DNA of 64,000 nt from Cyanothece sp. BG0011 (GTDB lineage Bacteria > Cyanobacteriota > Cyanobacteriia > Cyanobacteriales > Microcystaceae), in assembly GCF_003013815.1 (NCBI RefSeq), contig NZ_PRLH01000092.1:1-64000 (forward strand), read 5' to 3'. Each line of letters begins with the position of its first letter. The stretch's first letter is position 1. The translations under genes were made by a program, and so were the position numbers. Under the pieces are notes generated by a model. That model saw only the letters and a program-made list of their open reading frames with translations, had not been told where the DNA came from and searched no databases. Below are positions 4,617 through 63,512 of this stretch, in pieces.

Positions 4617-4820
4617 GCTGGTTTACCTGTTGATTTTACCGATGAATATCAACAGCGAATTGAAACTATGGGGTCTACACTTTTAACATACCCTTTTGAA
4701 CATCAAAGTTATCACTTACTCATGGGTAAAAATCCCGAAATATCAAAATATGAATTCTTAAAAATCAGTATTTCACCTGGCAGGAAAATTACGTTAAATT
4801 TTAAACCTAGTGCTATTTAA
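4617..4820 (+). pseudogene. C-terminal remnant of an unknown gene
   Basis: An open frame without a start codon in the expected place runs to a TAA at 4818-4820. It reads AGLPVDFTDEYQQRIETMG, then a soluble-looking sequence of 67 residues in all. Codon use looks coding, but no upstream portion exists in the preceding DNA, so I read it as the tail of a deleted gene. It overlaps the 3' end of the DUF512 gene by four bases. It could also be chance. Confidence 0.3.
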
Positions 4821-6146: not shown

Positions 6147-6506
6147 AGATAGAATTTAGAATGTAGAATTTAGAATGTAGAATTATCAATTAGTGGCAGA
6201 TAAAGCAAATTATAATAATTTTCAAAAAATTTAAGGTTTTTACAATAGTATCTCTAGAAAAATCTTGTTAGATTTAGGAGTGAATGATGATCGTTGGGAT
6301 GGTTATGTGTCCTCACAATTAAACTTTCTATAACGATCATATCTTAACGGGTCTTGTCTCAGGCAAGAATCAGGTCAGAGAAACAACGCAACAGGGTATT
6401 ACAAAAAGTTTGGCTATTTGATGGATAGTTATATAACTCCTGACTCTGTGACTCGGTGACTCCTGATTCCTGACCAATACCCGAAATATTGATGAATGCT
6501 TAGAAA
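6147..6506. other. Intergenic region between the DUF512 gene and ndhD
   Basis: Divergent control region of 360 bp. It begins with tandem AATTTAG/AATGTAG heptamers (6149-6185). A tiny frame at 6284-6322 (12 codons, MMIVGMVMCPHN) is preceded by TAGGAGTGA but is too short to call. Near 6428-6478 there is a low-complexity stretch with repeated GACTC/CTGA words. I could not place a promoter for ndhD. Confidence 0.5.
6149..6185. repeat. Short tandem heptamer repeats (AATGTAG/AATTTAG)
   Basis: About five head-to-tail copies of a 7-base unit just upstream of the DUF512 start codon. The same heptamer family occurs at 14287-14320 (other orientation) and 17749-17781. It fits the short tandemly repeated repetitive sequences known from cyanobacteria. 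Confidence 0.8.
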
Positions 6507-8093
6507 ATGTCAATGAACCTTGCTAATTTTCCTTGGTTAACCACCATTATTCTCTTTCCCATTGTGGCAGCCTTGTTAATACCCATCATTCCCGATAAAG
6601 ATGGTAAAACCGTGCGCTGGTACGCTTTAACAGTGGGTTTAATCGATTTTGCTATTATTGTATACGCTTTTTATACAGGGTATGACCTCAGCAATCCCAA
6701 CCTACAGCTAGTGGAAAGCTATGCTTGGGTTCCGGAACTAGACCTAAAATGGTCTGTGGGGGCTGATGGCTTGGCCATGCCTCTGATTTTATTAACCGGC
6801 TTTATCACCACTTTGGCCACCATGGCCGCTTGGCCTGTTACCTTTAAGCCCAAACTCTTTTATTTTCTCATGTTAGCCATGTACGGGGGACAAATTGCCG
6901 TCTTTGCGGTACAGGATATGTTATTGTTCTTCCTGGTGTGGGAATTGGAATTAGTCCCGGTTTATCTGATTTTGTCAATTTGGGGCGGAAAACGGAGACT
7001 TTACGCAGCCACTAAGTTTATCCTCTACACGGCGGGGGGTTCTTTGTTTATCCTGGTAGGGGCTTTAACCATGGCCTTTTTTGGGGATACTGTCACCTTT
7101 GATATGAGTACCATTGCCGCCAAAGATATTCCTCTCAATCTACAATTATTCTTGTATGCGGGTTTCCTCATCGCCTACGGAGTAAAATTGCCCATCTTTC
7201 CCCTGCATACTTGGCTACCGGATGCCCACGGGGAAGCCACCGCACCGGCCCATATGTTACTGGCAGGTATTCTCTTAAAAATGGGAGGTTATGCCCTCTT
7301 GCGGATGAATGCCGGGATGTTACCAGATGCCCACGCCTATTTTGCCCCGGTATTAGTTATTTTAGGGGTGGTAAATATTATCTATGCGGCGTTAACCTCC
7401 TTTGCCCAACGAAACTTAAAACGAAAAATCGCCTATTCTTCTATCTCTCACATGGGGTTTGTGTTGATAGGTATCGCTTCGTTTACCGATATTGGACTCA
7501 GTGGGGCCATGTTACAGATGATTTCCCACGGTTTAATTGGGGCGAGTCTCTTCTTTATGGTAGGGGCAACCTATGACCGTACTCATACCCTGATGTTAGA
7601 CGAAATGGGCGGTATTGGGAAGAAAATGAAGAAGGTGTTTGCCATGTGGACCACTTGTTCAATGGCTTCTTTAGCATTGCCAGGAATGAGTGGGTTTGTA
7701 GCAGAATTAATGGTATTTGTGGGCTTTGCCACCAGTGACGCTTATAACTCTACTTTCAAAGTTATCATCGTCTTTTTAGCTGCGGTGGGTGTCATTTTAA
7801 CCCCCATTTATTTACTGTCCATGTTACGTGAAATGTTATACGGACCTGAGAATAAAGAGTTAGTTTCCCATACCAAACTTATTGACGCAGAACCCAGGGA
7901 AGTGTTTATTATTGGGTGTTTATTAATCCCCATTATTGGCATTGGTTTGTATCCGAAAATCGTTACGCAGATTTATGATTCAACCACTACTCAATTAACC
8001 ACTTTGTTACGTCAATCTGTGCCTAGTTTAGTCGAAGAAATGGAAGTGGCTTCTCGCTATGATATGGCAGTGAAAGCCCCGATGATTAAATAG
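6507..8093 (+). CDS. ndhD: NAD(P)H-quinone oxidoreductase chain 4 (NdhD1-type)
   Basis: Antiporter-like membrane subunit of the cyanobacterial NDH-1 complex, used in respiration and cyclic electron flow in thylakoid or plasma membrane. The 528-aa sequence has about fourteen transmembrane segments. It keeps the conserved Glu in [11 protein letters not shown], the central Lys in [10 protein letters not shown] and [20 protein letters not shown], and [14 protein letters not shown]. Length and N-terminus ([16 protein letters not shown]) match the NdhD1/D2 type rather than the CO2-uptake NdhD3/D4 type, though this is by eye. Met3 (6513) is an equally good start. A strong terminator follows at 8118-8146. 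Confidence 0.95.
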
Positions 8094-9098: not shown

Positions 9099-10280
9099 TC
9101 AACCAAGGGAGACGGCTCCTTCTTGTCCACAGGCGTTCACCGATAAGCCATCGGCATTCTTGATCCAACCTTCGATATTTTTTGAGGCGTTGAGATCCCT
9201 GTCCATAACTTGGCCACAATTTTGACAATAATAAACTCTTTCAAATAAGGGCATATCTTGTATATTTCCGCAGACTGAACAAGTTTTTGAACTGGGGAAC
9301 CACCTATCTACTATGGTTAACAAAAAGCCAAAACATTCTTGTTTATAACTCAACAATTCTCGAAAACGATACAATCCTAAATTAGATAAGGCATCGGATA
9401 ATTTGTGGTTAGCCATCATCCCTTTTATGTTTAAATCTTCTATGAGAATATGTTGATAAGTTTTGGCCAATAATGTGGTGGTTTTTTGCAGAAAATCTTC
9501 TCGAATGTTGGTTATTCTTTTATGCTTTTTTCTTAGTTTCTGGTAATATTTAACCGCATTTTTAGATGCAGAGATTCCAGAACGACGGTTGCTGTGTACC
9601 TTATTTCTGTTTCTCCATTGTATCTTTCCTAGCTTGGTTTTCGCTTTTTTGATGGAAGATGGAGCCTCCAAGGTGTTTCCGTCACTAAGAGTGGCAAAAG
9701 TTTTTATTCCTAAGTCAATTCCTACTTTTTTATGGCAGTGTTTCATCTCAGGTCTTTTACAAGCTGAAACGGCAAAACTTATATACCATTTCCCTGCAGA
9801 CCTCGATATAGTAAAGGTTTGAGAAACACAGTTATAAGGGATAGCCTCTTTTAATCTGAATGTTCCCAAAGTAGGAATTTTTATCTTTTTTCCCTCCTTG
9901 ACTAATACCTTACCGTTAGAACTATCTACTGTAAAACTACAGTGATCTTTCTTCTTTTTAAAACGAGGTAAGTCTGCTTTTATTTTAGGCTCTCTCCAAC
10001 GGGAAAATGCTTTTTTCAAGTCCCTAAAAGCATTCTGATAAATGCGAGATGAATATTTATTTGTCCATAAATATTCTGTTTGCTTTTTAGTAATGTTTGT
10101 AAAGACTTTCTTGATAGCATCTAACCGTTTTGAGTCACTGCCAGAAATTTCGGGAATATCCCAGGTGGATTTGAGTAAAGATAAGCCATGATTGTATACA
10201 AAGCGAGAAAAGCCAGCACAGCCAGCAAAAAAGCTCTTTTCTTTGTTATTCAGCTTTAATTCTCTCTTAATTGCGTACAT
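9099..10280 (-). CDS. tnpB: TnpB, RNA-guided nuclease of an IS607-type element (C-terminal tail possibly frameshifted)
   Basis: Transposon-encoded RuvC-like nuclease. From Met 10280 the protein starts MYAIKRELKLNNKEKSFFAG, the usual TnpB start; the frame is open to 10355, but the extra 25 residues come from a palindrome (10306-10335). RuvC motifs are intact: Asp in KVGIDLGIKTFA, Glu in HILIEDLNIKGM, the zinc ribbon CSVCGN...CQNCG, and Asp in MDRDLNASKNI. The frame stops after ACGQEGAVSLG. One base fewer in a CCC run (9109-9107) would give the common tail VEAGIEQQACPGLSRF and a stop at 9032. The catalytic parts do not depend on this. An omega-type guide RNA would be expected over the 3' end and flank (about 8990-9150), but I cannot define it. 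Confidence 0.9.
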   Translation of the reverse strand: MYAIKRELKLNNKEKSFFAGCAGFSRFVYNHGLSLLKSTWDIPEISGSDSKRLDAIKKVFTNITKKQTEYLWTNKYSSRIYQNAFRDLKKAFSRWREPKIKADLPRFKKKKDHCSFTVDSSNGKVLVKEGKKIKIPTLGTFRLKEAIPYNCVSQTFTISRSAGKWYISFAVSACKRPEMKHCHKKVGIDLGIKTFATLSDGNTLEAPSSIKKAKTKLGKIQWRNRNKVHSNRRSGISASKNAVKYYQKLRKKHKRITNIREDFLQKTTTLLAKTYQHILIEDLNIKGMMANHKLSDALSNLGLYRFRELLSYKQECFGFLLTIVDRWFPSSKTCSVCGNIQDMPLFERVYYCQNCGQVMDRDLNASKNIEGWIKNADGLSVNACGQEGAVSLG

Positions 10281-10305
10281 GATTAGCTCTTTGACTCCCC
10301 TCAGA

Positions 10306-10335
10306 GCTAACACCGAGCGAAGTCGAGGTGTTAGC
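10306..10335. repeat. REP-like palindrome at the tnpA-tnpB junction
   Basis: GCTAACACC (10306-10314) pairs exactly with GGTGTTAGC (10327-10335) across a loop holding GAGCGAAGTCGA. The core CGAGCGAAGTCGAGG is a type of palindrome often scattered in cyanobacterial genomes (from memory). It contains the tnpA stop codon and lies upstream of the preferred tnpB start, so it may affect coupling of the two genes. Confidence 0.7.
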
Positions 10336-10972
10336 ATTGAATCTCTTGTTGACATTCTAAGGAATTGTCTAGGTTTTTGTCAAGGTTCTCTTTGAGCTTT
10401 TTCTTATAATTCCTTGTTCCATAGAGACGACAACTAAAGCAATGAATGATGGCCATCATGTCCTCAACCAGTTCTTGTTGTGGAGATAATAAATCATTAT
10501 TAGCCACAATTATCTTTGTACCATTTATGGTTGCTATTTGTTCTACTAAATCAAAGGCAAATCGACATAATCTATCTTTATGTGCCACGTAAATAGATTC
10601 AACTTGTCCTGTCATAACTTGTGACAACAGTGTTAAAAATTTTTTCCGTTTAAAATTTAATCCCCCACCTATTTCTTTTATGACTTTATCTATGGTTATC
10701 CCCTTAGCTGTACAAAATTGTTTCATTGCCTCTACTTGGTTGGATAGTTCGGGTTTTTGAGCATTTGAGGACACCCGACAATAAATTACATTAATACGAG
10801 GGGTTTTTATTATTCCTTTAATCTGATTAACGTGTTCATCTGTGTAGTATCTATGACCACCTACAGTTCTTAATGGCTTCAGTTTTCCAGAGGAGTCCCA
10901 TCGATGTAATGTTTTGACACTAACTCCTGCTAAATCGGCAAATTCACTTGGTCTATAGTGCATCCTAGACAT
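10331..10972 (-). CDS. tnpA: IS607-family serine recombinase (TnpA)
   Basis: Transposase of the IS607 type. From Met 10972 (MSRMHYRPSEF; Met 10963 is also possible) it has a MerR-like helix-turn-helix, EFADLAGVSVKTLHRWDSSG and GGHRYY, followed by the serine-recombinase catalytic domain beginning INVIYCRVSSNAQKPELSNQ, with the active-site Ser in CRVSS and the Arg in HKDRLCRFAF. Length is 213 aa, usual for the family. The frame is open further upstream to a GTG at 11098, but that part translates group II intron RNA structure and is not counted. It ends inside a palindrome, just before tnpB. Confidence 0.88.
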   Translation of the reverse strand: MSRMHYRPSEFADLAGVSVKTLHRWDSSGKLKPLRTVGGHRYYTDEHVNQIKGIIKTPRINVIYCRVSSNAQKPELSNQVEAMKQFCTAKGITIDKVIKEIGGGLNFKRKKFLTLLSQVMTGQVESIYVAHKDRLCRFAFDLVEQIATINGTKIIVANNDLLSPQQELVEDMMAIIHCFSCRLYGTRNYKKKLKENLDKNLDNSLECQQEIQC

Positions 10973-11027
10973 TCTGTATAGGTATGTCGAGTATTGTACA
11001 GGTTTTTGTCTTCTAGAAAAAGCTCCT

Positions 11028-11104
11028 GTAGGGTGGAGGTAGATGTTACCATCGTACCCCTCCCATCCAAAACCGTGCTTGCGATTTTCATCGCACACGG
11101 CTAC
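11028..11104 (-). other. Group II intron 3' remnant (domains V and VI)
   Basis: On the minus strand, AGCCGTGTGCGATGAAAATC (from 11102) starts a 34-base hairpin with the catalytic AGC triad, a GAAA loop and the distal strand GCAAGCACGGTT. This is the domain V signature. A second G-rich/C-rich hairpin (GGGAGGGG against CCTCCACCC, 11063-11031) ends in TAC at 11030-11028, as domain VI and an AY 3' end would. No reverse transcriptase frame or domains I-IV are seen upstream (11105-11389), so it is a truncated copy. The IS607-type element begins at or just after its 3' end. Confidence 0.75.
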
Positions 11105-11389
11105 TCAATATATTTATCCTTGTCGGTGGAAGATCATACCTTTTGATTTGATGTTATTAGAATGTTATTTTCCCAGTACCAAACGAATTTGTTTAATTCT
11201 TGGTTTATGAGTTTGAATCTCTATGTGGATTGATGTTTTCTAAGGTATTTCATCTCTAAGGTACTTTTTTAATCGTGGCGATGTCCGTGAAGAAGTTGAA
11301 GGTTTTTATATTTGTCATAATGGTTTCTAATTTCAAAAAAAAGAAAATAGGTTATTTTACTGACGGATTGTCGCCTAAAAATTGATAAT

Positions 11390-12019
11390 CTAACACAGGG
11401 CTTGTAAAGCCAACTGAACCCGCGCACAAACCCCTAATTCTTGCTCAATTTCTAACTGCTTTTCTAATCGTTCAACAATCGAATTAACGAAACCTTCTTC
11501 ATCCAGAGAAACCGCTAAATTTTGCAGTCCCACCACCGCCGCATAACGCACCACCCATTCAGGGTCATCTAATACCTTAAATAACGTCTCAATCGCCTGT
11601 TTTTGCCCCTCAGAAGCCTCTGAACTCGATAATTTGGACCATCCGATATAACCTAGTCCTTTCGCAGCCGAACGGCGCACACTCATAGAAAAATCCGTTA
11701 ACGCTGCCTCTTGGAGATGGTCTAACGCTGACGGATGACCAATACCGGCCAATGCGCGAGTTGCCCAGGCCCGGGCCCCATAATTATAGCCATCAATCTG
11801 TTGTAGGAGATAAGGCACACTGAGATCACCCAGATTAATCAACCCCTCCACTGCCGCCACGGCAGCCCCCGGATTATTGTAGCCCAACGCCTCAATTAAG
11901 GGTGGGATCGCCTTTTCATGTCCACTAGAAGCCAAAGACCGAACCGCCATGAGTAACCCCACCGCAGAATCGGCCGTTTCGACTTCTTTAATTAAATCGT
12001 GAATGTCTTGATCTTCCAT
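11390..12019 (-). CDS. cpcF: Phycocyanobilin lyase subunit, CpcF type (HEAT-like repeats)
   Basis: A 209-aa all-helical HEAT/PBS-lyase repeat protein. Repeats include AIPPLIEALGYNNPGAAVAA, VPYLLQQIDGYNYGARAWAT and the conserved SVRRSAAKGLGYIG. CpcF works with CpcE to attach phycocyanobilin to the alpha subunit of phycocyanin (Cys84) in the cytoplasm. The length (CpcF is about 205-215 aa) and the RAWATRALAGIGHPSALDHL segment fit CpcF. CpcE is not in the window, so a related E/F-type lyase is possible. Its ATG overlaps the toxin stop by one base (TAATG), so it is translationally coupled to the pair upstream. Confidence 0.72.
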   Translation of the reverse strand: MEDQDIHDLIKEVETADSAVGLLMAVRSLASSGHEKAIPPLIEALGYNNPGAAVAAVEGLINLGDLSVPYLLQQIDGYNYGARAWATRALAGIGHPSALDHLQEAALTDFSMSVRRSAAKGLGYIGWSKLSSSEASEGQKQAIETLFKVLDDPEWVVRYAAVVGLQNLAVSLDEEGFVNSIVERLEKQLEIEQELGVCARVQLALQALC

Positions 12020-12312
12020 TATTCATTGAGACCTAATAAGCGTTTCGTGTGGACCACCGCCACTACTATCACCGTATCACCATTCACTTGATAGATCACA
12101 CGGTAAGTATAAGCCGGTTGATCGCGAAAGGTGGTATTATCCCCTTCGGTAATCAACTCTCCGGTTAACGGATTATCCTCCAACTGATTAGTAGCATCCA
12201 AAATCTGGCGTACCACCGCAGCAGCATAAGAAGGAGAATCACGGGCGATATAGGTCGCAATGGAATCAACATCTTCTACAGCTTTAGAAGACCAAATCAC
12301 TCGATAAGCCAT
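12019..12312 (-). CDS. RelE/ParE-type toxin
   Basis: A 97-aa ParE/RelE-fold protein: MAYRVIWSSKAVEDVDSIAT at the start, a central NPLTGE turn, and the C-terminal YRVIYQVNGDTVIVVAVVHT strand pair ending in KRLL. Members poison gyrase (ParE) or cleave mRNA on the ribosome (RelE); which applies here is unclear. It overlaps the antitoxin gene by 16 bases and cpcF by one base. Confidence 0.85.
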   Translation of the reverse strand: MAYRVIWSSKAVEDVDSIATYIARDSPSYAAAVVRQILDATNQLEDNPLTGELITEGDNTTFRDQPAYTYRVIYQVNGDTVIVVAVVHTKRLLGLNE

Positions 12313-52493: not shown

Positions 52494-54719
52494 CTACTTT
52501 CTAACTTCCGTTTTTTCACTTTTTGGGTGTAATACTTCAGGTTTAGCCGATTTGGTGTAAGTTTCGATTACATTTTTGATAATTCCCAGTCCAACGCCTC
52601 CCCCTAGGGTCATAATAGATTCGGGGTGAAACTGAACTGCTGCGATCGGTAGGGTTTGATGCTCAATAGCCATGATGACTTGATCCTCTGAAAAAGCAGT
52701 GACCTTAAATTCATCAGGCAACTTCTCAGGAAGGGCATATAAAGAGTGATAGCGACCCACTGTAAAGGAAGTCGGCAGATTTTTAAACAAGGCTGAAGAA
52801 CTCGCAGTCACTGAAACTAAAGAGGTTTTACCATGTTGAGGATAGGATAAAGTGCCTAACTCTCCTTTGAAGGCTTCAACAATTCCTTGTAATCCTAAAC
52901 AAACCCCAAAAATAGGTAATTTTCTTTCAATACAAGCATCAACCATTGTAGGAACCTCAAATTCTCCCGGACTTCCGGGGCCAGGAGACAACACCACGAG
53001 ATCCGGTGACATTTTATCTAACATCGCCAGAGCAAAATCATGGCGTACGGTGGTTACGATAGTTCCTGCCTGACGCAGATAGTTGGCTAACGTATGAACA
53101 AAAGAATCTTCATAGTCAATTAACAAAACCCGTTTGGCTGAAGAAGTGAGTTTGAGGTTAATGGACAGACCCTCGCCGTTTTCACAGTCTTCTAAAGGTT
53201 GAGGAGTTGCGCCTAAAGTTTGAAACAGGGCTGCCGCTTTAGTTAAAGTTTCTTGTTCTTCAGCTTCAGGAATAGAGTCATAGAGAAGGGTTGCCCCGAC
53301 TCTTACCTCGGCAATTGAATCTTTTTGGCGTATGGTGCGTAAAATTAACCCAGTGTTAAGATTCCCATTAAACGCTAAATAACCCACTGCTCCCCCGTAC
53401 CAACGGCGCGGACTGCGTTCATTTTGCTCAATAAACTGTATAGCCGAAGGTTTGGGTGCGCCGGTGACTGTAACTGCCCAAGTATGGCTTAAAAAGGCAT
53501 CTAAAGCGTCAAATTCGGGTCTAAGAATACCTTCAACATGATCCACCGTATGAATTAAATGACTGTACAATTCAACTTGACGACGGCCAATCACTTGCAC
53601 CGAACCCGGTTCACAAATACGGGATTTATCATTGCGGTCAACATCGGTACACATGGTTAACTCAGCTTCATCTTTATGAGAATTGAGTAACTCGCGAATT
53701 CGCAGCGCGTCATCAATGGCATCTTCTCCCCGACTAATAGTGCCACTAATAGGACAAGTTTCGACAGTTTGACCTTCTACGCGCACAAACATTTCAGGAG
53801 AAGCACCGACAAGATATTCACCCCCTAAATTAAAAATAAAGCCGTAGGGACTCGGATTGATTTGTTGTAGGGTTTGAAATAATTGGCTTGGGGCAGTTTC
53901 ACAGGTTTGGAAAAAGCTTTGAGAAGGAACTACTTCAAATAAGTCACCACGGACAAAATAATCTCGGGCCTTTTCTACTTGCTGAGCATATTCTCCTGGT
54001 TGGTGATCCGAAATTTGGGATAAAGGTAGCCGTTTGCCCCGATAATCAACCATTTCACCAATTCGAGGCAAGCCTTGAGTATCCCCAAAATAGGTACTAA
54101 ATTCATATTGACAACAGTAAGCCCGTTGTAGATAATAATCCACAATGACTAATTCATCGGGTAAATATAGCACTAAATCCCGTTGATCGGCTGCACGAGA
54201 TTGATGTTTTTTAATTGGCTCAAACTGAAAGACTAAATCGTAAGCAAATGCCCCATAAAGACCTAAATGTTTATCGTCTTGACTGTGAAATATTTGGCTA
54301 ATTTCTCTAATAATGGTAAAAACCGAGGGTTGCTTACTTCTGTGTTCTTCAGAGAAAAATTCTTGGCTTTTTTGAACCGAACCCGTAATTGCATCTTTAT
54401 CAATAATGACTTTCTCAAGCTGAGAATGGGTGCAAAGATGTCGAGCCATATAAGGCAAAAGCCTAATTCCTCGTTCATTATGAGCTTTTATGGTAAAGGT
54501 GCGATCCTGAGTGGATAATTCAAGGGGAGGATTAACGAATCCAATCGCCCATCGTTTGTAGCGTCCTGGATATTCATAACTACTACTGAGTAAGCCTCCC
54601 CGTTGAGAGTCTAGGCAAGATAGTATATTTTTGAGAGCAGTATCTTTATCCATTTCAATGATTGAACGAGATACTTGAATACCGCCTTGGGTTACATAAC
54701 AATAGCTGTCTGTCATCAT
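52494..54719 (-). CDS. trpE: Anthranilate synthase, fused TrpE-TrpG
   Basis: Makes anthranilate from chorismate and glutamine. The 741-aa fusion has the TrpE part (about 1-520), with CPISGTISRGEDAIDDALRI, DVDRNDKSRICEPGSVQVIG and TVTGAPKPSAIQFIE. The TrpG amidotransferase (about 535-725) has the Cys nucleophile in PIFGVCLGLQGIVEAF and the His-Glu of AVQFHPESIMT. The N-terminus has GGLLSSSYEYPGRYKRW, the region that binds feedback tryptophan in other TrpE proteins. It is first in the minus-strand run, and faces the divergent control region. Confidence 0.95.
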   Translation of the reverse strand: MMTDSYCYVTQGGIQVSRSIIEMDKDTALKNILSCLDSQRGGLLSSSYEYPGRYKRWAIGFVNPPLELSTQDRTFTIKAHNERGIRLLPYMARHLCTHSQLEKVIIDKDAITGSVQKSQEFFSEEHRSKQPSVFTIIREISQIFHSQDDKHLGLYGAFAYDLVFQFEPIKKHQSRAADQRDLVLYLPDELVIVDYYLQRAYCCQYEFSTYFGDTQGLPRIGEMVDYRGKRLPLSQISDHQPGEYAQQVEKARDYFVRGDLFEVVPSQSFFQTCETAPSQLFQTLQQINPSPYGFIFNLGGEYLVGASPEMFVRVEGQTVETCPISGTISRGEDAIDDALRIRELLNSHKDEAELTMCTDVDRNDKSRICEPGSVQVIGRRQVELYSHLIHTVDHVEGILRPEFDALDAFLSHTWAVTVTGAPKPSAIQFIEQNERSPRRWYGGAVGYLAFNGNLNTGLILRTIRQKDSIAEVRVGATLLYDSIPEAEEQETLTKAAALFQTLGATPQPLEDCENGEGLSINLKLTSSAKRVLLIDYEDSFVHTLANYLRQAGTIVTTVRHDFALAMLDKMSPDLVVLSPGPGSPGEFEVPTMVDACIERKLPIFGVCLGLQGIVEAFKGELGTLSYPQHGKTSLVSVTASSSALFKNLPTSFTVGRYHSLYALPEKLPDEFKVTAFSEDQVIMAIEHQTLPIAAVQFHPESIMTLGGGVGLGIIKNVIETYTKSAKPEVLHPKSEKTEVRK

Positions 54720-55372
54720 GAAATACTTTTAAAGATTACTTGTAATAGAGTTAATAGAGATAAAAACGGGTTTATCTACTCGATGTAATTAAACTTATCT
54801 CTGCTGTTTCGTTAGTACAGTTAACTTGTAGTTTAATCAGCATTATTTTTTTAGACAATGAACAAACTTTAGATAAAAGTATCTATTTTTTATTAGAACA
54901 TTAACTATAACTTTAGATAGAGATTGTCTTAATCTTGAGTAAGATAGAAAAAAATATTGTTAAAAATTTATACAGCCAAAGTCTTGTTATAACTGATTCT
55001 CAGCTATTCTTGCCATTCATTTTAGTTCGGCTAATTTCTGCCAATCTATAAATTTTGAATAAGTGTCAAAAGATAGTTCATTGTTTTTTGCTGTCTAAGT
55101 TAATTAATCTTTGACATAGTAAACAAGCACTTGACTTAAATCATTTTTTGATTTTCTGATCCCTATCCATGCCCAACCATTAGAGATGTAAATCTTTACC
55201 AAAATTAGCCTTGATTTTAAATTTTGAGGATTAATGAGTTGTGCAAACACATAAGTTTGGAAGATCAAAGATTGTTCATCAAATAGAGATGTTTATGGTT
55301 GAAATGATGAATTTTAATATCGATCAAATCTATGGTCGTGCATGGTGCTTTCACTAATGTTTTGGAGGTTTT
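54720..55372. promoter_or_regulatory. Divergent control region of the sunscreen locus
   Basis: 653 bp without a convincing gene, between trpE (-) and the first acidic repeat gene (+). It should hold promoters for both the precursor run and the scy run, and the AraC-type regulator's sites. A GGAGG ribosome site lies at about 55360-55365, just before the plus-strand ATG. The long leader on both sides leaves room for attenuation or a small RNA, but I found no clear tryptophan leader peptide. Confidence 0.6.
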
Positions 55373-57157
55373 ATGTCTGAAAGTGTAGAGAGTCAAAACC
55401 CATTTTCAGAGGTTGGCAACTCCCTCATTGATGACCTCACTAGGGTCAGTAACCTTCCTCCCTTTGCTGGAGGAGGCATTCCTTCCTTTATGGGAGATGA
55501 CGGTAGTGTAATTTCAAACCCAAATTTTACCCCCGAAGGTAATAACAATGACACCAACGGTAACGGTAACTGGTACTTTAGTGACAGTAATCAAACCAAC
55601 GGTAACGGTAATTGGTATTTTGGCAGTGGTAATACGACCACGGGTAATGGCAACTGGTATATAGGCAGTAATAACAATCTTACAGGTAATGGAAACCGTC
55701 CCAGTGGAAGCGGTAACAGTATTACAGGTAATGGAAATCGTCCCAATGGCGATAACAATACGATTACCGGTAATCGCGTTCTGACGACAGAAGACGGACA
55801 AATAATTTTTGGTAACGGCGATCGCTATTTTCTCACGGATGCGAATGGCAATGTCTCTTTAATCAGTGACGAATCTGCCAGTGATCCTAACTATGAAAAC
55901 GATCCTAACTATGAATTTGATTTAGAAAATGACAACACAGCAGCGGATAGTTCAGTTTCTATGAATATGACTTCTTTTTCTATGATGAACGGTAATCCTT
56001 TCGGTGGTAATCCTTTCGGTGGCGGTACTGGAGGCGGGAACCCTTTTGGTGGCGGTACTGGAGGCTTCGGCGGTGGTTCCGGCGGTGACGATAATGGTGA
56101 GGGTTCAGATAACTCTGAGATGCTAGAACAACTTCGCCGTAGTCCTTTTGGACGTTTATTTGAGATTCCTGGATTTGAAATCGACGATCCAAGCGATATC
56201 TTTGGTAACGCAGGCGGTACTGGAGGGGGTAATCCTTTCGGTGGTGGTACTGGAGGAGGTAATCCTTTCAGTGGTGGTACTGGAGGAGGTAATCCTTTCG
56301 GTGGCGGTACTGGAGGCGGTAACCCTTTCGGTGGTGTAGCTTCTTCTAGCAGTACCGTTACTTCCTCGGAGGAAAGCGAAGATTCAAGCGATAATCCTTT
56401 TGCAGGGGGTGAAAATCCCTTTGGAGATGATAATCCTTTTTCAGGTATCGGTAATCCTTTTGCAGGAGAAGAACTAGCCTTTGAAATTGATGGAGATGGC
56501 TACTTACTGAAAAATTCAGACAATCAATGGTATCTCAGCGACGATGACATGATCGATGAGAATGACCAATTATTGTTTAATGGCAATAACGTCTTCGGTG
56601 GTGGTAATCCTTTCGGAGAAGGTGAAAGTCCTTTTGGAGAGGGTGAAAATCCTTTCGGAGGGGGTGAAAATCCTTTTGGTAATCCCTTTGAAGGCGAAGA
56701 AGTTGCCATTTCCATCCCAGGAGACGGTTATTTGCTCAAAGATGCAGAAAACCAATGGTATCTTAGTGAAGATGACATGGTTGATGAAGCAGACGAACTT
56801 TTATACGGTGGCAGCAATCCCTTTACAGGGGGTGGCGATGGTGAAAATCCCTTTCCTGGCGGTAATTTTGGTAATCCTTTCGCCGGGGAAGAAGGAGAAG
56901 AATTAGCAATTTCTATACCAGGAGACGGCTATTTACTCAAAAATGCAGAAAATCAATGGTATCTCAGCGAAGACGACATGGTAACTGAGGATGACCAATT
57001 ACTTTTTGAGGGTGCCAATGTCTTTTCTGGTGGTAGTGGTTCTTTCGGAGACGGTGACAACCCCTTTGGGAGTGGCGAAAATCCTTTTGGTGGTGGCGAA
57101 AATCCCTTTGCAGGAGGCGAAAATCCTTTTGCGGGGGGTGAAAGTCCGTTTGGTTAA
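55373..57157 (+). CDS. Novel acidic tandem-repeat protein (GNGNWYF / GNPFGG / GDGYLLK repeats), scy-linked
   Basis: A 594-aa protein I do not recognise. It has three repeat types. (1) Residues 61-130: five units of 14 aa, such as TNGNGNWYFSDSNQ and TNGNGNWYFGSGNT, changing to LTGNGNRPSGSGNS. (2) NPFGGG/GENPFGG linkers in several blocks (about nt 55988-56112, 56209-56338, 56600-56700, 57050-57157). (3) Three copies of a module of about 40 aa (nt 56471-56594, 56698-56816, 56899-57026): GDGYLLKNAENQWYLSEDDM then acidic DQLLF. It is very rich in Gly, Asn, Asp, Glu and aromatic residues, poor in Lys/Arg, and lacks Cys. No signal peptide; type I secretion or a cytosolic scaffold are both possible. 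It heads the scy run, 41 bp before the next gene. I infer a structural, sheath or scaffold role. Confidence 0.8.
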   Translation: MSESVESQNPFSEVGNSLIDDLTRVSNLPPFAGGGIPSFMGDDGSVISNPNFTPEGNNNDTNGNGNWYFSDSNQTNGNGNWYFGSGNTTTGNGNWYIGSNNNLTGNGNRPSGSGNSITGNGNRPNGDNNTITGNRVLTTEDGQIIFGNGDRYFLTDANGNVSLISDESASDPNYENDPNYEFDLENDNTAADSSVSMNMTSFSMMNGNPFGGNPFGGGTGGGNPFGGGTGGFGGGSGGDDNGEGSDNSEMLEQLRRSPFGRLFEIPGFEIDDPSDIFGNAGGTGGGNPFGGGTGGGNPFSGGTGGGNPFGGGTGGGNPFGGVASSSSTVTSSEESEDSSDNPFAGGENPFGDDNPFSGIGNPFAGEELAFEIDGDGYLLKNSDNQWYLSDDDMIDENDQLLFNGNNVFGGGNPFGEGESPFGEGENPFGGGENPFGNPFEGEEVAISIPGDGYLLKDAENQWYLSEDDMVDEADELLYGGSNPFTGGGDGENPFPGGNFGNPFAGEEGEELAISIPGDGYLLKNAENQWYLSEDDMVTEDDQLLFEGANVFSGGSGSFGDGDNPFGSGENPFGGGENPFAGGENPFAGGESPFG

Positions 57158-57198
57158 TGGGCTAAACACACTTTAGTAACTATCTGAGGCGATTAAAC

Positions 57199-57600
57199 AT
57201 GAACGAAGAAATGATGAACGGTGAATACACCTTTGATTTTGTCTTCAATTTCGATGAAGCAGATTATCCCACTGAAGATGATTATACCTATGATTTTGAA
57301 GATTCAATCACTGGGGAATATCCTACCGAGGATGATTACACCTATGATTTCGATGACCTCTTAAATGGAGGCAATGGAGATTATCCTACTGAAGATGACT
57401 TCACCTATGATTTCGAGGGATTAGTTATGGGTAATTATCCGACAGAGGATGATTATACTTATGATTTCGATTTTTCTGGTGGAATGGGTGACTCTCCTGA
57501 CAATGGAGGAAGTCCTTTTCCTGGAAATGGTGGGTCCTCTAATGGAGGCAGCATGATGGGCGGCAGCCTTCCTTTTGCTGTTGATGCTAGCGTCATGTAA
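57199..57600 (+). CDS. Novel acidic YPTEDDYTYDF-repeat protein, scy-linked
   Basis: A 133-aa protein I do not recognise. YPTEDDYTYDF occurs four times (residues 23-33, 41-51, 62-72 as FTYDF, 80-90) at 18-21 aa spacing, with a degenerate EYTFDFVFNF ahead. The C-terminal 40 residues are Gly/Ser/Pro-rich (DSPDNGGSPFPGNGG) and end in LPFAVDASVM. There is no Lys, Arg, His, Cys, Trp or Gln at all, so the predicted charge is extremely negative. No signal peptide. A GAGG ribosome site precedes the ATG. It lies between the larger repeat gene and scyA. A calcium-binding, matrix or pigment/enzyme-scaffold role is possible but not shown. Confidence 0.8.
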   Translation: MNEEMMNGEYTFDFVFNFDEADYPTEDDYTYDFEDSITGEYPTEDDYTYDFDDLLNGGNGDYPTEDDFTYDFEGLVMGNYPTEDDYTYDFDFSGGMGDSPDNGGSPFPGNGGSSNGGSMMGGSLPFAVDASVM

Positions 57601-57773
57601 CGCCCTAATCAAACAATCGGAGTGAGTGACTTGTCTTCATTTTGCCTACTAATTGCTTAATAAAACGAATTTTTGCAACCAGCTAAGCAAACCGCCATTT
57701 TTCTCAATCCTACGCTCTAGTCGTTAAGCTCCAGCTTTCTCTCACCCTAAGTAACTGACAAGTCTATAAGAAA

Positions 57774-59636
57774 ATGACACAAAACTACTCTCAACCAACT
57801 TCTCCTAAAGCAGTCTCTGCTAAAACTAACAGCAACAGGAATCATCACAGCGAGCAACTTATCGCAAAACGGATTGTATTTCAGCCTTCCTCTAAGGATG
57901 GCCAAAAAAAGGATGATGTTGTTTCACTAACGGTTGCTCAGGCCATTGTCAAAGTCCTAGAAGATATCGGTGTACGCCAAGCTTTTGGGGTTTCTGGTGG
58001 CGCAATGGCAACCTTGTGGGCTGCGCTTTCTAATAGTCCGTTAATTGATGTCATTCACTGTCGCCATGAAGGAGGAGCCGCCTTTGCTGCAACAGAAGCT
58101 TACTTTAGTAGTGGGCGTCCGGTGGTAGTTTTCACCACTGCTGGCCCTGGCATTACTAATGCCCTCACCGGACTGTTAGCAGCACGGGATGAAGGGGCTA
58201 AAGTGATTCATCTTTCTGCTTGTACCTCGGCCCCTCAACGGGGACGTTGGGCAATCCAAGAGACGAGTAGTTACACCTTACCTACGGGGGGAATTTTTAC
58301 CTCTGGTGCGCTGTTTCACTACGGGACAGTTGTGGAGTCTCCTAAAGAACTCCCTCAAATTGCTCGGAGACTAGGGTTAGGGTTAGCTCAACCTGGTGGT
58401 TTTGTCGCTCATATTAGCATTCCGACACGAATGCAATCAACACCGATTGAAACCCCTTTACCCCTGGTTAATAGTGCTGTTGCTTTGCCTGTTCCTAGCC
58501 AACATACCGTCACGAAAGTTGCCGAACACCTCTGTGAAGGGCCTTTCGCCATCTGGGTTGGCTTTGGGGCGCGTCATGCGGCGGATTCCATTCGTCAACT
58601 GGCTCAGAGAACAGGGGCAGCGGTGATGTGTTCCCCTCGGGGTAAAGGGATTTTTCCAGAAACTCATCCCCAGTTTATCGGGGTCACAGGATTAGGGGGT
58701 CATGACTCGGTGGCTACCTATATGCAGCAGCATCGTCCTTTACGAACCTTGGTTTTAGGGACTCGTTTGGGTGAGCCAACTTCTTTTTGGAATGAAAAGA
58801 TGATCCCTCCTCAAGGGTTTATTCATGTTGACGTTGACCCGAAAGTGCCTGGGGTGGCTTATCCTTTTGCCCCAACCCTTCCTATTGTTGCTGATGCTGA
58901 TATTTTTGTGAAAGCATTGTTGGAGGTACTTCCCGAAACTTCAGGGCAAACTATTAATTATCCTAATCCTGAATCTATCGAAGTTGAAGGAGAGTCCGAC
59001 AATGGCGTTCGTCCTGAAATTTTGATGGAAATGGTTCAAAAGGTGGTGATTGATGGCAGTGATGCTGTGGTTTTGGCTGAGTCGGGTAACTCTTTTACCT
59101 GGTCTACCCATTTATTGCGCTTTAATGAGGCTAAGCGTTACCGTGTGAGTACCGGAGTGGGTTCGATGGGACACAATGTTACGGGTGTTATTGGTGCAGC
59201 CATGGGACGAAAAGGCAAGGCGGTTACTATTGTCGGTGATGGAGCGATGTTGATGAATAGTGAAGTCAGTACGGCGGTTAAATACCAAATTCCGGCGGTT
59301 TGGATTGTGCTAAATGATGCCCGTTATAATATGTGCTATCAAGGTATGTCAATGCTCGGTTTGACCGGGGCTGATGCCATGTTTCCTCAAACGAATTTTA
59401 GGGCGATCGCTAATGGCATGGGTGCAAAGGGTATTACTGTCGAAACAGAGTCTCAACTTGAAGAGGCACTTAAAGGTGCAATGGCCTTGGATGAACCGGT
59501 TGTCATTGATGTCTATATTGATGCGACGCGACTGGCTCCTTCTAAAGGACGAAATAAGGGGTTAGGAGCGCAAGGGGTCAAATTTCGCCGTCAAGAGCCG
59601 AAAAAAGGATCTCAAGTTTCTTTTCCTTTAGTTTAG
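57774..59636 (+). CDS. scyA: ScyA, thiamin-diphosphate enzyme of scytonemin synthesis
   Basis: Acetolactate-synthase-like ThDP enzyme. In N. punctiforme ScyA couples indole-3-pyruvate with p-hydroxyphenylpyruvate to give the beta-ketoacid precursor of scytonemin. This 620-aa protein has the ThDP-activating Glu in IHCRHEGGAAFAATEAYF (about residue 100), AGPGITNALTGLLAARDEG, and the ThDP/Mg motif IVGDGAMLMNSEVSTAVKYQ ending IVLNDARYN. Residues 1-55 form a polar extension. It is followed by scyB and scyC, the order that defines the locus; without them, a plain acetolactate synthase would be an alternative. Confidence 0.92.
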   Translation: MTQNYSQPTSPKAVSAKTNSNRNHHSEQLIAKRIVFQPSSKDGQKKDDVVSLTVAQAIVKVLEDIGVRQAFGVSGGAMATLWAALSNSPLIDVIHCRHEGGAAFAATEAYFSSGRPVVVFTTAGPGITNALTGLLAARDEGAKVIHLSACTSAPQRGRWAIQETSSYTLPTGGIFTSGALFHYGTVVESPKELPQIARRLGLGLAQPGGFVAHISIPTRMQSTPIETPLPLVNSAVALPVPSQHTVTKVAEHLCEGPFAIWVGFGARHAADSIRQLAQRTGAAVMCSPRGKGIFPETHPQFIGVTGLGGHDSVATYMQQHRPLRTLVLGTRLGEPTSFWNEKMIPPQGFIHVDVDPKVPGVAYPFAPTLPIVADADIFVKALLEVLPETSGQTINYPNPESIEVEGESDNGVRPEILMEMVQKVVIDGSDAVVLAESGNSFTWSTHLLRFNEAKRYRVSTGVGSMGHNVTGVIGAAMGRKGKAVTIVGDGAMLMNSEVSTAVKYQIPAVWIVLNDARYNMCYQGMSMLGLTGADAMFPQTNFRAIANGMGAKGITVETESQLEEALKGAMALDEPVVIDVYIDATRLAPSKGRNKGLGAQGVKFRRQEPKKGSQVSFPLV

Positions 59637-59749
59637 TTCGAGACTGGAGGACTGGGAGAAAAAAAGCCATTAATTGACTTTTTCCATGGGTGCTTGTTTT
59701 ATCACCCTGTCACCCCAAAATATATTTTTTAACATTGAGGAAAGCAAGA

Positions 59750-60799
59750 GTGAAGCTTTTTGAAACAGTCACGCAAATGGGTCATGAGCAAGTGCTTTTT
59801 TGCCATGACAAAGATCACAATCTTAGGGCAATTATTGCCATTCATAATACAAATTTAGGGGCAGCCATGGGAGCAACCCGTTTGTTCCCTTATCAGAGCG
59901 ATACAGATGCTTTAAATGATGCTTTGCGCTTAAGTCGAGGCATGACTTATAAGGCGGCTTGTGCCAATCTTCCTGTGGGAGGAGGGAAAGCGGTTATTAT
60001 TGCCCATCCTCAAGATAAAACTAAGGATTTATTACGAGCTTATGGACGATTTGTTGATCGTTTAAATGGTCGTTTTATTACGGGTCAAGATGTTAATTTA
60101 TCCCCTGATGATGTCCGAGAAATTAATAAAGAAACGTCCTATGTTGTAGGAACCCAAGAAAGATCAGGGGGACCGGCTCCAATTACGGCTAGAGGGGTTT
60201 TATTAGGGATTAAAGCGGCGGTTTCTCACCGGTGGCAACAGGAAAATTTACAGGGTTTAAGGGTTGCTGTACAAGGGTTAGGCAATGTGGGCAAAAATCT
60301 TTGTCAACATTTACATGATCACGGTGCAAAACTTTTTGTCTGCGATCTTGATCCGAAGAAAACGGCTGAAATGAAACGTCTTTATGGGGCAACAATTGTC
60401 GAACTAGAAAAGATTTATGGTTTGGATGTGGATATTTTTTCTCCTTGTGCTATGGGGGGAATTTTAAATGAGTTTACTATTCCTCAGTTACAAGCTTCTA
60501 TTGTAGCTGGAGCAGCGAATAATCAGCTTAAAAATGAAGGGTTAGATAGTTGTTTATTACAGGAAAAAGAGATTCTTTATTGTCCCGATTATGTGATTAA
60601 TGGAGGAGGTTTGATTAATGTTTATAATGAGATGATTGGTTACGATGAGATCAAAGTTTTTCAACAATTGAATAATATTTATAACAGTTTGTTGGAAATT
60701 TTCAATATTGCTAAAACTGAAAAAATCACTTCTTTTGAAGCGGCTCAGAAATTAGCAGAAAAAAGAATCATGAATGTCAAAGTTAAACAAGTAGCGTAA
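59750..60799 (+). CDS. scyB: ScyB, leucine-dehydrogenase-like tryptophan dehydrogenase
   Basis: NAD-dependent amino-acid dehydrogenase family; in N. punctiforme it deaminates tryptophan to indole-3-pyruvate. The start is taken as GTG 59750 (MKLFETVTQMGHEQVLF), with GAGGAAAGC just upstream, giving 349 aa; an in-frame ATG at 59690 adds 20 unlike residues. Motifs: AIHNTNLGAAMGATRLFPYQ, the catalytic-Lys region SRGMTYKAACANLPVGGGKA, RFITGQDVNLSPDD, and the Rossmann loop VAVQGLGNVGKNLCQHL. Follows scyA by 113 bp; 5 bp before scyC. Confidence 0.93.
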   Translation: MKLFETVTQMGHEQVLFCHDKDHNLRAIIAIHNTNLGAAMGATRLFPYQSDTDALNDALRLSRGMTYKAACANLPVGGGKAVIIAHPQDKTKDLLRAYGRFVDRLNGRFITGQDVNLSPDDVREINKETSYVVGTQERSGGPAPITARGVLLGIKAAVSHRWQQENLQGLRVAVQGLGNVGKNLCQHLHDHGAKLFVCDLDPKKTAEMKRLYGATIVELEKIYGLDVDIFSPCAMGGILNEFTIPQLQASIVAGAANNQLKNEGLDSCLLQEKEILYCPDYVINGGGLINVYNEMIGYDEIKVFQQLNNIYNSLLEIFNIAKTEKITSFEAAQKLAEKRIMNVKVKQVA

Positions 60800-60804
60800 A
60801 AAAA

Positions 60805-61776
60805 ATGGAAGAAAATACTTTTGCAACTTCAGCTTACATTGCAAATTCACCCGAAATCGTTTTTAATTATCTCTGTAGCCTGGAAAATCTCAATGATTGG
60901 ACGCTTTACAGTCGCATGATTGAAAAAATTGATGATCAGACTTGGTTAGGTACAGCTTCAGGCTATCAAAATAATCTTTATTATCACGTTCGACCCATTG
61001 AAAATGCTTCTTTTCGGGGCATAGAATGGCATTGTGGGTTTGAATATCAAAAATATTTTCAAGTTTATCCTGTGTTACTATTTCCCCCTGAGTATATTGA
61101 ACCAGGTACGGAGGAAAAAGGGGTTTACTTCCATTGGTTGAGTTTTATTGACCCAAAACGACGGACACCGATGATTATGCAAGGTATTGAAACGGTGCAT
61201 ACATCTGAATGTCGCTCTCTTAAAGCTATTTTAGAACGTCAAGCAGGACAAACTCAAGCTATCTCAGGACGTTATCGTATTGAAACTGATACGATATATG
61301 TTAATGCACCGGTAGAATTAGGTTTTGAGTATCTCAAAGATTTACGTAATATGGACGACTGGGCGCATTTATTACGGGCTAAGGGTAAGATAAATCCTAC
61401 TCAGGGGACATTTTTGGATGAATATGACCAAATTGTCGAAGTTGAGTTCATTAGTCACGATTTAAACAATTATTATTTAATTGAACAAAATTTCTTTTAT
61501 CCTCAACAGAACTTTATGCAACGTTGTCCGACGCTCTTAGTTCCTTGTTTCTATGCGTTTGGTGATGATGATGCACAAGGGTTTATTCAACACCGTATTA
61601 CTTTCTGGCCGATAGGTCAATCTTTCTCTCATGGAAAGTTGCAAATTCAGGATTATGGTGCAGAAAGCATGAATATTAAGCGATTGTTGGAAGCAAAAGC
61701 AGGAAATACGGACAGTTTTGCTAAAGGAATGAGCTATCAGCTTGAATCTCCCTCTCCTTCTTTGGCTTCTGTTTAG
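60805..61776 (+). CDS. scyC: ScyC, scytonemin cyclase-type protein
   Basis: In N. punctiforme ScyC cyclises and decarboxylates the ScyA product to the tricyclic ketone. This 323-aa protein has two START/SRPBCC-like halves, seen as repeats: TSAYIANSPEIVFNYLCSLE with LNDWTLYSRM, and TIYVNAPVELGFEYLKDLRN with MDDWAHLLRA. No signal peptide. It starts 5 bp after scyB and is thus translationally close-linked. The call rests on gene order plus this two-domain form. Confidence 0.88.
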   Translation: MEENTFATSAYIANSPEIVFNYLCSLENLNDWTLYSRMIEKIDDQTWLGTASGYQNNLYYHVRPIENASFRGIEWHCGFEYQKYFQVYPVLLFPPEYIEPGTEEKGVYFHWLSFIDPKRRTPMIMQGIETVHTSECRSLKAILERQAGQTQAISGRYRIETDTIYVNAPVELGFEYLKDLRNMDDWAHLLRAKGKINPTQGTFLDEYDQIVEVEFISHDLNNYYLIEQNFFYPQQNFMQRCPTLLVPCFYAFGDDDAQGFIQHRITFWPIGQSFSHGKLQIQDYGAESMNIKRLLEAKAGNTDSFAKGMSYQLESPSPSLASV

Positions 61777-62123
61777 TGACTCCCTTCCTTTACCCCCCTC
61801 TTAAAGGGGGAATAACTCTCTAACTTATCAATATGTACAACTCATATCTTGCACCTTCGATAACACCCCCCACACCCCCCTTTATAAGGGGGGCAGGGGG
61901 GGTAGGCAAGAGGCAAGAGCGGTGAGACCCCGCGCCTTCGCATCTGCGCAAGGAAACGCTCACCAAGACAGGCAAGAGTGTTTTATTTTGACGCTAACTT
62001 ATTACAAATTGATTGCCTTCTCGGTAATTATTAAGTTTACTTGTTCTGGTGCAAGATGTCAGTTGTATTGATTGTTAATTAATGTTAGTTAAAACAGCAA
62101 AAAATTTAATTTTTAATTGTGAA
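61777..62123. other. Gap within the scy run, filled by repeats
   Basis: Contains a C/G hairpin (61793-61810) right after the scyC stop, a MITE-like element with 20-base inverted ends (61836-62067), and the start region of the DGINN gene. No coding frame apart from the start of the next gene. Confidence 0.6.
61836..62067. mobile_element. MITE-like element with terminal inverted repeats, inserted in the scy run
   Basis: TACAACTCATATCTTGCACC (61836-61855) and GGTGCAAGATGTCAGTTGTA (62048-62067) are inverted to each other with two mismatches. Inside are a C6/G6 palindrome (about 61866-61897) and a second inverted area with GGTGAG (61930) and CTCACC (61966). No transposase. The left end plus C/G block matches 3098-3163 in reverse orientation, so other copies exist. 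Confidence 0.65.
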
Positions 62124-63512
62124 ATGAAAAAAAGGATCAAAAGGTTATTTATTGTTTGTTTGACTTCTAGTTCAATAATATTAGCACCCGCTTCTCAAGT
62201 AACGGCACTTAATTTTACTTATTCTCAAACGTTTGATAGAAATGAGCAAGGACAACTTGAAATTAAATCAAATTTAGAGATTAATAATGCTAGAAATATT
62301 TATATTTTAGATGGGATTAACAACAGCGTTGAAATCTTTTCTCAAGTTGATGAGTTAAAGGCTTTTCAATCTAATTTTTTATCAACTAATGATAAAATAT
62401 TTAGTGATTCTGAAAATAATGTCTATCTCATTGACGGAATTAATAACAGTTTAATTGTTAATCCAATAGCCAATAATAATCAAGGGGTTAATGGTGGGGG
62501 AAATATCTACTATATTAATGGTTTTAATAATTATTTAGGGGAGATTAGTTTTAGTGAAAGTTCAGGGGGGGTTATTGAGACATTTAACTGGTCTAAAAAC
62601 TTAGTATCTGGACAATCTTCTCAGCCTTATTGGTCTAGCGAAATGGCAACAGAAGGAGCTAATAATATCTATGGAGTTGATGGGATTCATAATCGATTAC
62701 AAGGAATTTCTTTTTCTTCTAATGAAACAGGAAACTTTTATGTTGTCGATGGATTAAATAATTCTTTTAATGTTTTTAATTCTTATCAAGGATTGAATAG
62801 AGATGGACAATTAAATTGGAATAAAAATTTAGTCTCAGATGGCGAAGGTAATCTATCTTGGTTGAATGAAGTAACGTCTAATGCTACAAAATCTCTGTTT
62901 CAACTTGATGGTATTAATCAAACTGTTCAGCGTTCTCTACTTAACCAAAATTATGATTATCTCTATTCTTTAGATGGCATTAATAATCAACTACAAATTT
63001 TACCGCCTGAGCCTTCTCTTTTTTCTTTATTTAATATTTTAAATCAAAATAATGATAATCAATGGCAATGGTTTACTGATGAAGAAGTTCCTGCTTGGGA
63101 TGCAGGGAATGAATCAGAATTTGAAGTTGAGCCTTCTTTGATCTCTTTTTTCTCAAATTTTGCTAGTAATAATCAATCTATTTCTTTTCCTGAAAATTTA
63201 AGTTTAGAAGAATTAGAAACGATTTTCGGTAGTGCTTTCGGGGAAGAAAATTCTTTTAATTTACAATTTTTTGAGTTACTTACATTACTGTCTAATAATG
63301 AACAATTGAGTTTGACAGATTTTTTGAATAATGATTCGTTATCATCCTTTAATTTTAATGATATTTTTATCACTGAAGAAACTCAGAATTCTCCACCACA
63401 AACATTGGTGTCTGTGCCTGAACCATCCTTTAATTTTGGCTTAGGATTTTTCGGATTACTCAAACTAATTTATCTTTTTAAAAAATACCATGAACCCAAT
63501 CAAAAAACATAA
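62124..63512 (+). CDS. Secreted DGINN-repeat protein with PEP-CTERM anchor, scy/ebo-linked
   Basis: From Met 62124 (MKKRIKRLFIVCLTSSSIIL, then APASQVTA) it has a signal peptide; an ATG at 62082 adds 14 residues. The motif NIYxxDGINNxL occurs seven times (first NIYILDGINNSV, last YLYSLDGINNQL) between about nt 62295 and 62994. Copies 2-7 form three pairs with a period of about 76-82 aa, and (S/N)KNLVS occurs between pairs. An acidic Ser/Asn-rich region follows. The end, SVPEPSFNFGLGFFGLLKLI then KKYHEP, is a PEP-CTERM exosortase signal. About 462 aa. It fills the place where other clusters have NHL-repeat scyD/scyF, so a periplasmic propeller-like role is inferred. Confidence 0.75.
   Translation: MKKRIKRLFIVCLTSSSIILAPASQVTALNFTYSQTFDRNEQGQLEIKSNLEINNARNIYILDGINNSVEIFSQVDELKAFQSNFLSTNDKIFSDSENNVYLIDGINNSLIVNPIANNNQGVNGGGNIYYINGFNNYLGEISFSESSGGVIETFNWSKNLVSGQSSQPYWSSEMATEGANNIYGVDGIHNRLQGISFSSNETGNFYVVDGLNNSFNVFNSYQGLNRDGQLNWNKNLVSDGEGNLSWLNEVTSNATKSLFQLDGINQTVQRSLLNQNYDYLYSLDGINNQLQILPPEPSLFSLFNILNQNNDNQWQWFTDEEVPAWDAGNESEFEVEPSLISFFSNFASNNQSISFPENLSLEELETIFGSAFGEENSFNLQFFELLTLLSNNEQLSLTDFLNNDSLSSFNFNDIFITEETQNSPPQTLVSVPEPSFNFGLGFFGLLKLIYLFKKYHEPNQKT

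Follow-up and report, generated by a model that had tools for sequence, protein, structure and literature searches.

Two repeat proteins poor in basic residues, here named R1 and AR, are encoded ahead of scyA, scyB and scyC in Cyanothece sp. BG0011, and the wider set of repeat proteins to which they belong, apparently undescribed, is seen in our sequence searches almost only in genomes with scytonemin genes. We propose that R1 and AR may be co-expressed, exported proteins of the scytonemin sheath that retain the pigment, and put the probability of this reading at roughly 0.45. Positions are those of the window, that is, the whole 64,000-nucleotide stretch analysed, in which the relevant features are the following.

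55072..55125, plus strand: non-coding block upstream of R1, candidate promoter region of the R1-AR-scyABC run
55373..57157, plus strand: R1, 594-aa modular repeat protein with 3 K, 8 R and no C or H
55541..55870, plus strand: predicted beta-solenoid of R1, residues ~57-166 (block pLDDT 60-82)
56114..56203, plus strand: SPFG...IPG...DIFG mini-domain of R1, residues 248-277
57199..57600, plus strand: AR, 133-aa acidic aromatic repeat protein without basic residues, ATG start
57265..57297, plus strand: AR repeat 1, YPTEDDYTYDF
57319..57351, plus strand: AR repeat 2, YPTEDDYTYDF
57382..57414, plus strand: AR repeat 3, YPTEDDFTYDF
57436..57468, plus strand: AR repeat 4, YPTEDDYTYDF
57774..59636, plus strand: scyA (TPP enzyme)
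59690..60799, plus strand: scyB (Glu/Leu/Phe/Val dehydrogenase type)
60805..61776, plus strand: scyC

The head of the scytonemin run

An earlier note on this DNA had placed AR between another repeat protein and scyA on the same strand, and this is indeed the arrangement: AR starts 41 nt after R1, with GAGG 9 bases before its ATG, and ends 173 nt before scyA. The same note had treated the upstream repeat protein as a neighbour only; its position stands, but R1 turns out to be the wider member of the same system. The block at 55072-55125 is partly conserved in six loci, ~280-300 bp before R1 (AGTTSATTG ... ATAAGCTGCATAC in relatives), and this block and the gene layout fit one transcript covering R1, AR and scyABC, which would make the genes co-transcribed. 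Promoter-like and terminator-like sites over 54700-57900 were not above chance, the sole terminator-like site lying inside AR. A promoter element shared with the regions upstream of scyA in heterocystous forms was considered and set aside as too weak, the short pattern matching 15 of 75 loci, 11 of these 15 without an upstream R1.

The plus strand continues after scyC with, by reading, a 476-aa protein with a PEP-like end, followed by ebo-type and DsbA-type genes, and further on in the run (locus L003) with a ScyD/E-family protein and ScyF; on the opposite strand, upstream of R1, a trp-type run can be read. The 476-aa protein (62082-63512), directly after scyC, carries by reading repeated YxxDGINN-type units and a VPEP-type end, and it may be related, again by reading, to a 399-aa protein similarly placed in another locus (L181, 11618-12817). 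Locus L003 belongs to the window's genome and has the scyE-type gene and scyF after ebo-type genes (9647-12231). A further ebo-type gene lies on another contig (C217:58086-59297), which also holds an exosortase match (C217:26211). Elsewhere in the window, on the minus strand, a TnpB-like ORF preceded by a serine-recombinase-like ORF resembles an IS607-type element (9099-11098), and two ORFs resemble halves of one PDZ-containing protein, apparently split (4817-6146), both by reading.

AR is a real gene

AR is a real gene under purifying selection. Its pN/pS ratio is 0.18-0.41 across 10 of 10 pairs, with synonymous sites saturated in several of them. Four near-identical 11-residue repeats at 18-21 aa spacing had been noticed in it, and they do start at residues 23, 41, 62 and 80 (spacings of 18, 21 and 18), with F replacing Y in the third (YPTEDDFTYDF); ahead of the four stands a fifth, weaker unit, GEYTFDFVFNF. 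Of 30 pairwise base differences among the four repeats, 25 affect codons that specify the same residue and 27 are third-position changes, and hence it is the protein repeat that is conserved. The reported absence of Lys, Arg, His, Cys, Trp and Gln from all 133 residues was confirmed by the composition (D23 G19 Y12 F12 E11 T10 N9 S9 M8 P8 V4 L4 A3 I1; net charge -34); with residue frequencies taken from six ordinary window proteins, a naive independent model gives such an absence a chance of p ~9e-14.

Low complexity, together with the lack of any Pfam or NCBIfam model matching AR above cut-off, might speak for a spurious ORF or drifting low-complexity sequence. This is hardly credible, being already contradicted by the purifying selection and by the conserved place of the gene across genera. 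AR is predicted to be disordered: its structure model has a mean pLDDT of 46.5 and no residue at or above 70, on a thin alignment of 5 sequences, and searches against PDB profiles gave chance-level matches (best E 0.089). Near-identical repeated units with spacers would also be expected if AR were a RiPP precursor, its YPTEDDYTYDF units serving as the cores of a ribosomally synthesised and modified peptide. We consider this very improbable, since ATP-grasp, radical-SAM and protease genes were not seen in the scy-ebo run (by reading, part of it library-searched), and since the repeats also occur inside larger R1-AR proteins in varying number and place.

R1 is a modular repeat protein

R1 combines a GNGNW solenoid, an SPFG helical mini-domain, NPFGG linkers and three GYLLK modules. 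The solenoid repeats (GNGNWYFG) are 14 aa long, with two predicted strands each, and the model also contains the mini-domain, as helix, and three small beta modules, of which the first is at block pLDDT 94-97; 330 of the 594 residues have pLDDT <50. Two pairs gave pN/pS values of 0.15 and 0.37. No Pfam or NCBIfam model matched R1 above cut-off, and the structure search returned nothing significant (Foldseek best E 0.7, VIA-align Z <=5.0).

Relatives of AR

A single-sequence search of 386 genomes of the phylum found AR itself and one match (E=0.007) that reads as unrelated, and a single-sequence scan of genome contigs gave 0 relatives. Relatives of AR were reached with ScyC as bait and then with profiles, the contig scan with ScyC covering the best 80 of 120 loci. 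Basic-poor repeat proteins of the R1/AR set lie upstream of scyA in 6 of these 80 named loci, namely those of Pleurocapsa CCALA 161, Hydrococcus Prado102, Chroococcus FPU101, Aphanothece hegewaldii, a MAG titled Gracilibacteria (whose locus content is cyanobacterial) and MAG QS_4_48_99; R1-type genes lie 3' of scyC in three further ScyC loci (L035, L046 and L049). The ScyC and ScyA of the locus titled Candidatus Gracilibacteria (L036) and of one titled Tatlockia (L047) are cyanobacteria-like, and both are probably misnamed or misbinned MAGs.

AR-type repeats are present in 4 of the 6 upstream loci. In L032 and L036 they have a gene of their own; in Aphanothece hegewaldii (L034) they are fused to R1, and in Chroococcus FPU101 (L033) to its later part, the beginning of R1 being encoded there in a different frame. 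The two frames of the Chroococcus gene (5437-7007; a 91-aa, then a 333-aa ORF) point to a frameshift in the assembly or in the gene.

The AR profile (A3) was made from these four AR-bearing relatives and the window's AR. Over 3,025 ORFs (the window and the 80 named scyC loci) its matches were confined to these five; in 388 genomes of the order it gave 5 strong matches (E 4e-39 or better), which come again from the window and the four named genomes, all of a single family. It had been suggested that AR is linked to scyA, and when homologues were sought in the 388 genomes, 5 of 5 strong matches adjoined scyA: each lies directly before it, 3.0-3.8 kb upstream of scyC and on the same strand, the five being the rows of the profile itself. 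Weak matches in three further genomes (G645, G644 and G634) were rejected, as they read as unrelated proteins, which we take to be a DUF4347/LVIVD-type repeat protein and a nuclease-type protein. Short low-basic ORFs 5' of scyA in L055, L069, L106 and L109 were likewise dropped, the AR and R1 profiles not matching them. Eight other genomes of the genus to which the window belongs lack AR; G390 among them carries scyC. In that genome the order is scyB-scyA-scyC (L030, contig C6), ScyA is 57% identical to the window's and neither R1 nor AR is matched; the sequences suggest that its scy cluster was possibly acquired separately. On these profile matches, AR is a lineage-specific, sometimes fused, partner of R1.

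R1 relatives track scyC

With the R1 profile (A4), matches at E<=1e-8 were called strong; no more than 5 candidates per genome were scored, so that misses are possible. Strong matches were found in at least 45 of the 388 genomes, 43 of these 45 having scyC, vs 9 of the other 343 (Fisher p ~1e-45, kinship between genomes ignored). Six of the 43 had supplied the profile, having been found via ScyC, and thus count by construction; without these donors the figures are 37 of 39 vs 9 of 343 (p ~2e-40, kinship again ignored), or 37/2/9/334 genomes with both, with R1 only, with scyC only and with neither. At E<=0.001 the same four numbers become 45/35/7/301. The 35 genomes with matches between E 1e-8 and 1e-3, 2 of them with scyC, were left out of the strong class, and several of the matches listed for them have internal stops. 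The two strong matches without scyC are in a 65%-complete genome (G561) and in one (G251) where the match reads as a remnant. Among the matches listed, R1 lies upstream of scyC in 12 genomes, downstream within 40 kb in 15 and far off or on another contig in 16; all 27 nearby cases have the two genes on the same strand. In one family (f5), 18 of 24 genomes with scyC have a strong R1 match. Strong R1 is missing from 9 of 52 genomes with scyC and AR from 47 of 52, and therefore neither can be needed for scytonemin in general.

In three loci (L046, L049 and L182) the SPFG mini-domain and the GNGNW repeats are encoded by two separate genes, between scyF-type and eboA-type genes, and each of the two proteins has a PEP-CTERM-type tail. 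The NCBIfam PEP_CTERM cut-off is exceeded only by the SPFG-type relatives, those of L049 and L182; the GNGNW relative of L049 scores 13.6 bits, below the Pfam PEP-CTERM cut-off of 20.7. The tail is absent from the R1 relative of L035. In four Nostoc-type loci (L175-L177 and L180) an unlinked R1 relative lies near a PheT-like ORF.

R1 and AR might alternatively be general sheath or stress proteins, for example calcium- or ice-binding ones, that ride in the scy operon and leave the pigment untouched, the operon being shared because both are needed in desiccating, sun-exposed colonies. A profile comparison does bring out a resemblance of the R1-type solenoid to the ice-binding beta-roll of a grass (3ult, E 1.4e-4), the L034 protein comes near LbR_Ice_bind (E 0.028, below cut-off), and the 34 carboxylates of AR could bind cations. 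Yet the likeness of the solenoid is weak, its structural matches staying at Z <=5.0, and R1 tracks scyC even in the 16 genomes where it is far off or on another contig, which a common ecology explains less well; we regard this alternative as distinctly unlikely.

A recurrent motif and the question of export

The pattern [YFW]x[YFW][DN]F, picked after the sequences had been viewed, is ~12 times denser in 34 R1-type proteins without AR-type repeats than in 331 other ORFs. The 34 proteins hold 16 copies vs 1.1 by shuffling, spread over 8 of them, with 6 of the 16 in one protein. Because the motif recurs in relatives of R1, AR reads as the local multiplication of a recurrent motif. NPNYDFS-like tails end 11 of 36 members of the R1/AR set. 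The tripeptide YDF occurs in none of 7 PEP-CTERM members vs 23 of 29 others, so that the two are never found together, in lineages that are not independent.

By eye, an N-terminal Sec signal is not discernible in AR, in R1 or in the PEP-CTERM-type relatives, and neither AR nor the window's R1 matches the PEP-CTERM models of Pfam or NCBIfam. The proteins end in SLPFAVDASVM (AR) and GGESPFG (R1). An extreme C-terminal motif of an acidic residue followed by hydrophobic ones has been described for AprA and TliA, and was unneeded for LipB in work cited in the part of that paper available to us (PMC2642768). Of the 29 non-PEP members, 15 have such an end, or 20 of 35 once six sister ORFs are added, against 31 of the 174 ORFs used as controls. 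It is present in the window's AR and in L034, absent from the window's R1 and from the AR-bearing proteins of L032, L033 and L036, and lacking in 14 of the 29. A first count, over 22 hand-picked members, had given 15 of 22, and a looser regular expression was made after the ends had been viewed. Because the full count (15 of 29) is weaker than the hand-picked one, confidence in the export model was lowered from 0.5 to 0.45. The resemblance to the AprA and TliA motif, absent as it is from some members, therefore favours Sec-independent export with moderate confidence only. In the window's own genome HlyD matches are all below cut-off, and two exosortase matches are above it.

The same features bear on a cytosolic scaffold, in which R1 and AR would form a condensate or membrane-tethered metabolon gathering ScyA, ScyB and ScyC (and the Ebo exporter). 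No signal peptide is apparent, the genes lie directly before scyA, AR is predicted to be disordered, the sticker-like motif is enriched, roughly every second non-PEP member has no type I-like end, and those PEP-CTERM-type relatives in which no N-terminal signal is apparent could be anchored by their tails. On the other hand, the other half of the non-PEP members do have a type I-like end, PEP-CTERM is described as an export sorting signal in the text seen of PMC12188702, AR is missing from 47 of 52 genomes with scyC, and in vitro activity has been reported for ScyA, ScyB and ScyC (PMC4870267, seen in part). We judge such a scaffold, in which the aromatic and acidic motifs would be stickers and the NPFGG stretches spacers, unlikely, if still a serious rival.

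A proposed scaffold for the pigment

The sheath reading put forward at the outset may be pictured as follows. R1 and AR, the first genes of the scytonemin run in the window's lineage, would yield basic-poor proteins in which no signal peptide is apparent; they would be expressed together with ScyABC and be exported, possibly by way of the type I-like C-terminal end in the window's AR and of PEP-CTERM in some relatives. R1 would be a modular scaffold, a beta-solenoid and small beta modules on disordered NPFGG linkers. AR would be a disordered polyanion with five copies of the Y-x-[YF]-D-F-type motif that is found singly or in a few copies in some R1 relatives, a multivalent flexible chain that could dock R1, the pigment or the polysaccharide within a sheath or envelope scaffold. 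The R1-AR scaffold would retain scytonemin where UV-A is absorbed. Co-transcription, export and the binding of pigment or matrix are what we infer for the two proteins, and a sheath scaffold retaining the pigment, which it would presumably bind, seems the most economical function to assign to exported proteins whose genes track scyC. According to the text seen of PMC12188702, scytonemin gathers with polysaccharide outside the cell and in Nostoc punctiforme depends on the exosortase CrtB; for the same text, how it crosses the outer membrane is undefined, and where the Scy PEP-CTERM proteins finally reside is unresolved.

A bolder version, which we offer tentatively and think doubtful, is that R1 and its relatives, with AR as a motif array amplified in one family, make up the structural partners that have so far been missing for scytonemin: an exported modular protein scaffold, common in genomes that have scytonemin genes, would collect the pigment outside the cell and fix it in the sheath polysaccharide.

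The earlier note knew no such protein in described scytonemin clusters, and the literature bears it out as far as the text seen of the scytonemin papers goes, outside figures and supplements. A broad literature search yielded nothing pertinent, and in the text seen neither PMC12188702, PMC4870267, PMC2726228, PMC7997468 and PMC6282210 nor PMC6529634, PMC9796282, PMC2642768 and PMC3034196 describe R1 or AR, and NCBIfam has models for ScyD/E and ScyF and none that matches AR or R1 above cut-off. The survey of 388 genomes of one order offers a protein set tracking scyC, with genes to delete and proteins to localise, and the R1/AR set provides candidates that heterologous scytonemin production could be missing.

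Comparison with known systems

Like the PEP-CTERM proteins ScyD, ScyE and ScyF of the scy locus, R1 and AR are encoded in the scytonemin run, and the R1 relatives of L049, L046 and L182, which lie between genes of scyF and eboA type, share PEP-CTERM-type tails with them. AR and the window's R1 differ from ScyD/E and ScyF in leaving the models NF033206 and NF035926 unmatched and in having no PEP-CTERM.

With leaderless proteins secreted by type I (ABC) systems, AR shares the lack of an apparent signal peptide, an acidic composition rich in Gly, Asp and Asn with no Cys, and an end in hydrophobic residues after an acidic one, as in the motif given in the portion seen of PMC2642768, whereas the window's R1 and 13 other members lack that end. 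No RTX (GGxGxD nonapeptide) model of Pfam matched AR or R1, and no transporter genes were recognised beside them by reading.

R1-type relatives are weakly alike to the grass ice-binding protein 3ult by profile, AR having no such part; the L034 protein scores 14.9 bits with LbR_Ice_bind (PF21300) vs a gathering threshold of 30, the window's R1 being unmatched. The bactofilin 6ria aligns with R1 at Z 5.0 and 3.0 A over 78 residues, with an identity of 4%. WspA of Nostoc sheaths is an extracellular protein with which scytonemin may interact according to the part seen of a review (PMC7997468), and its likeness to R1 and AR lies in the proposed role only.
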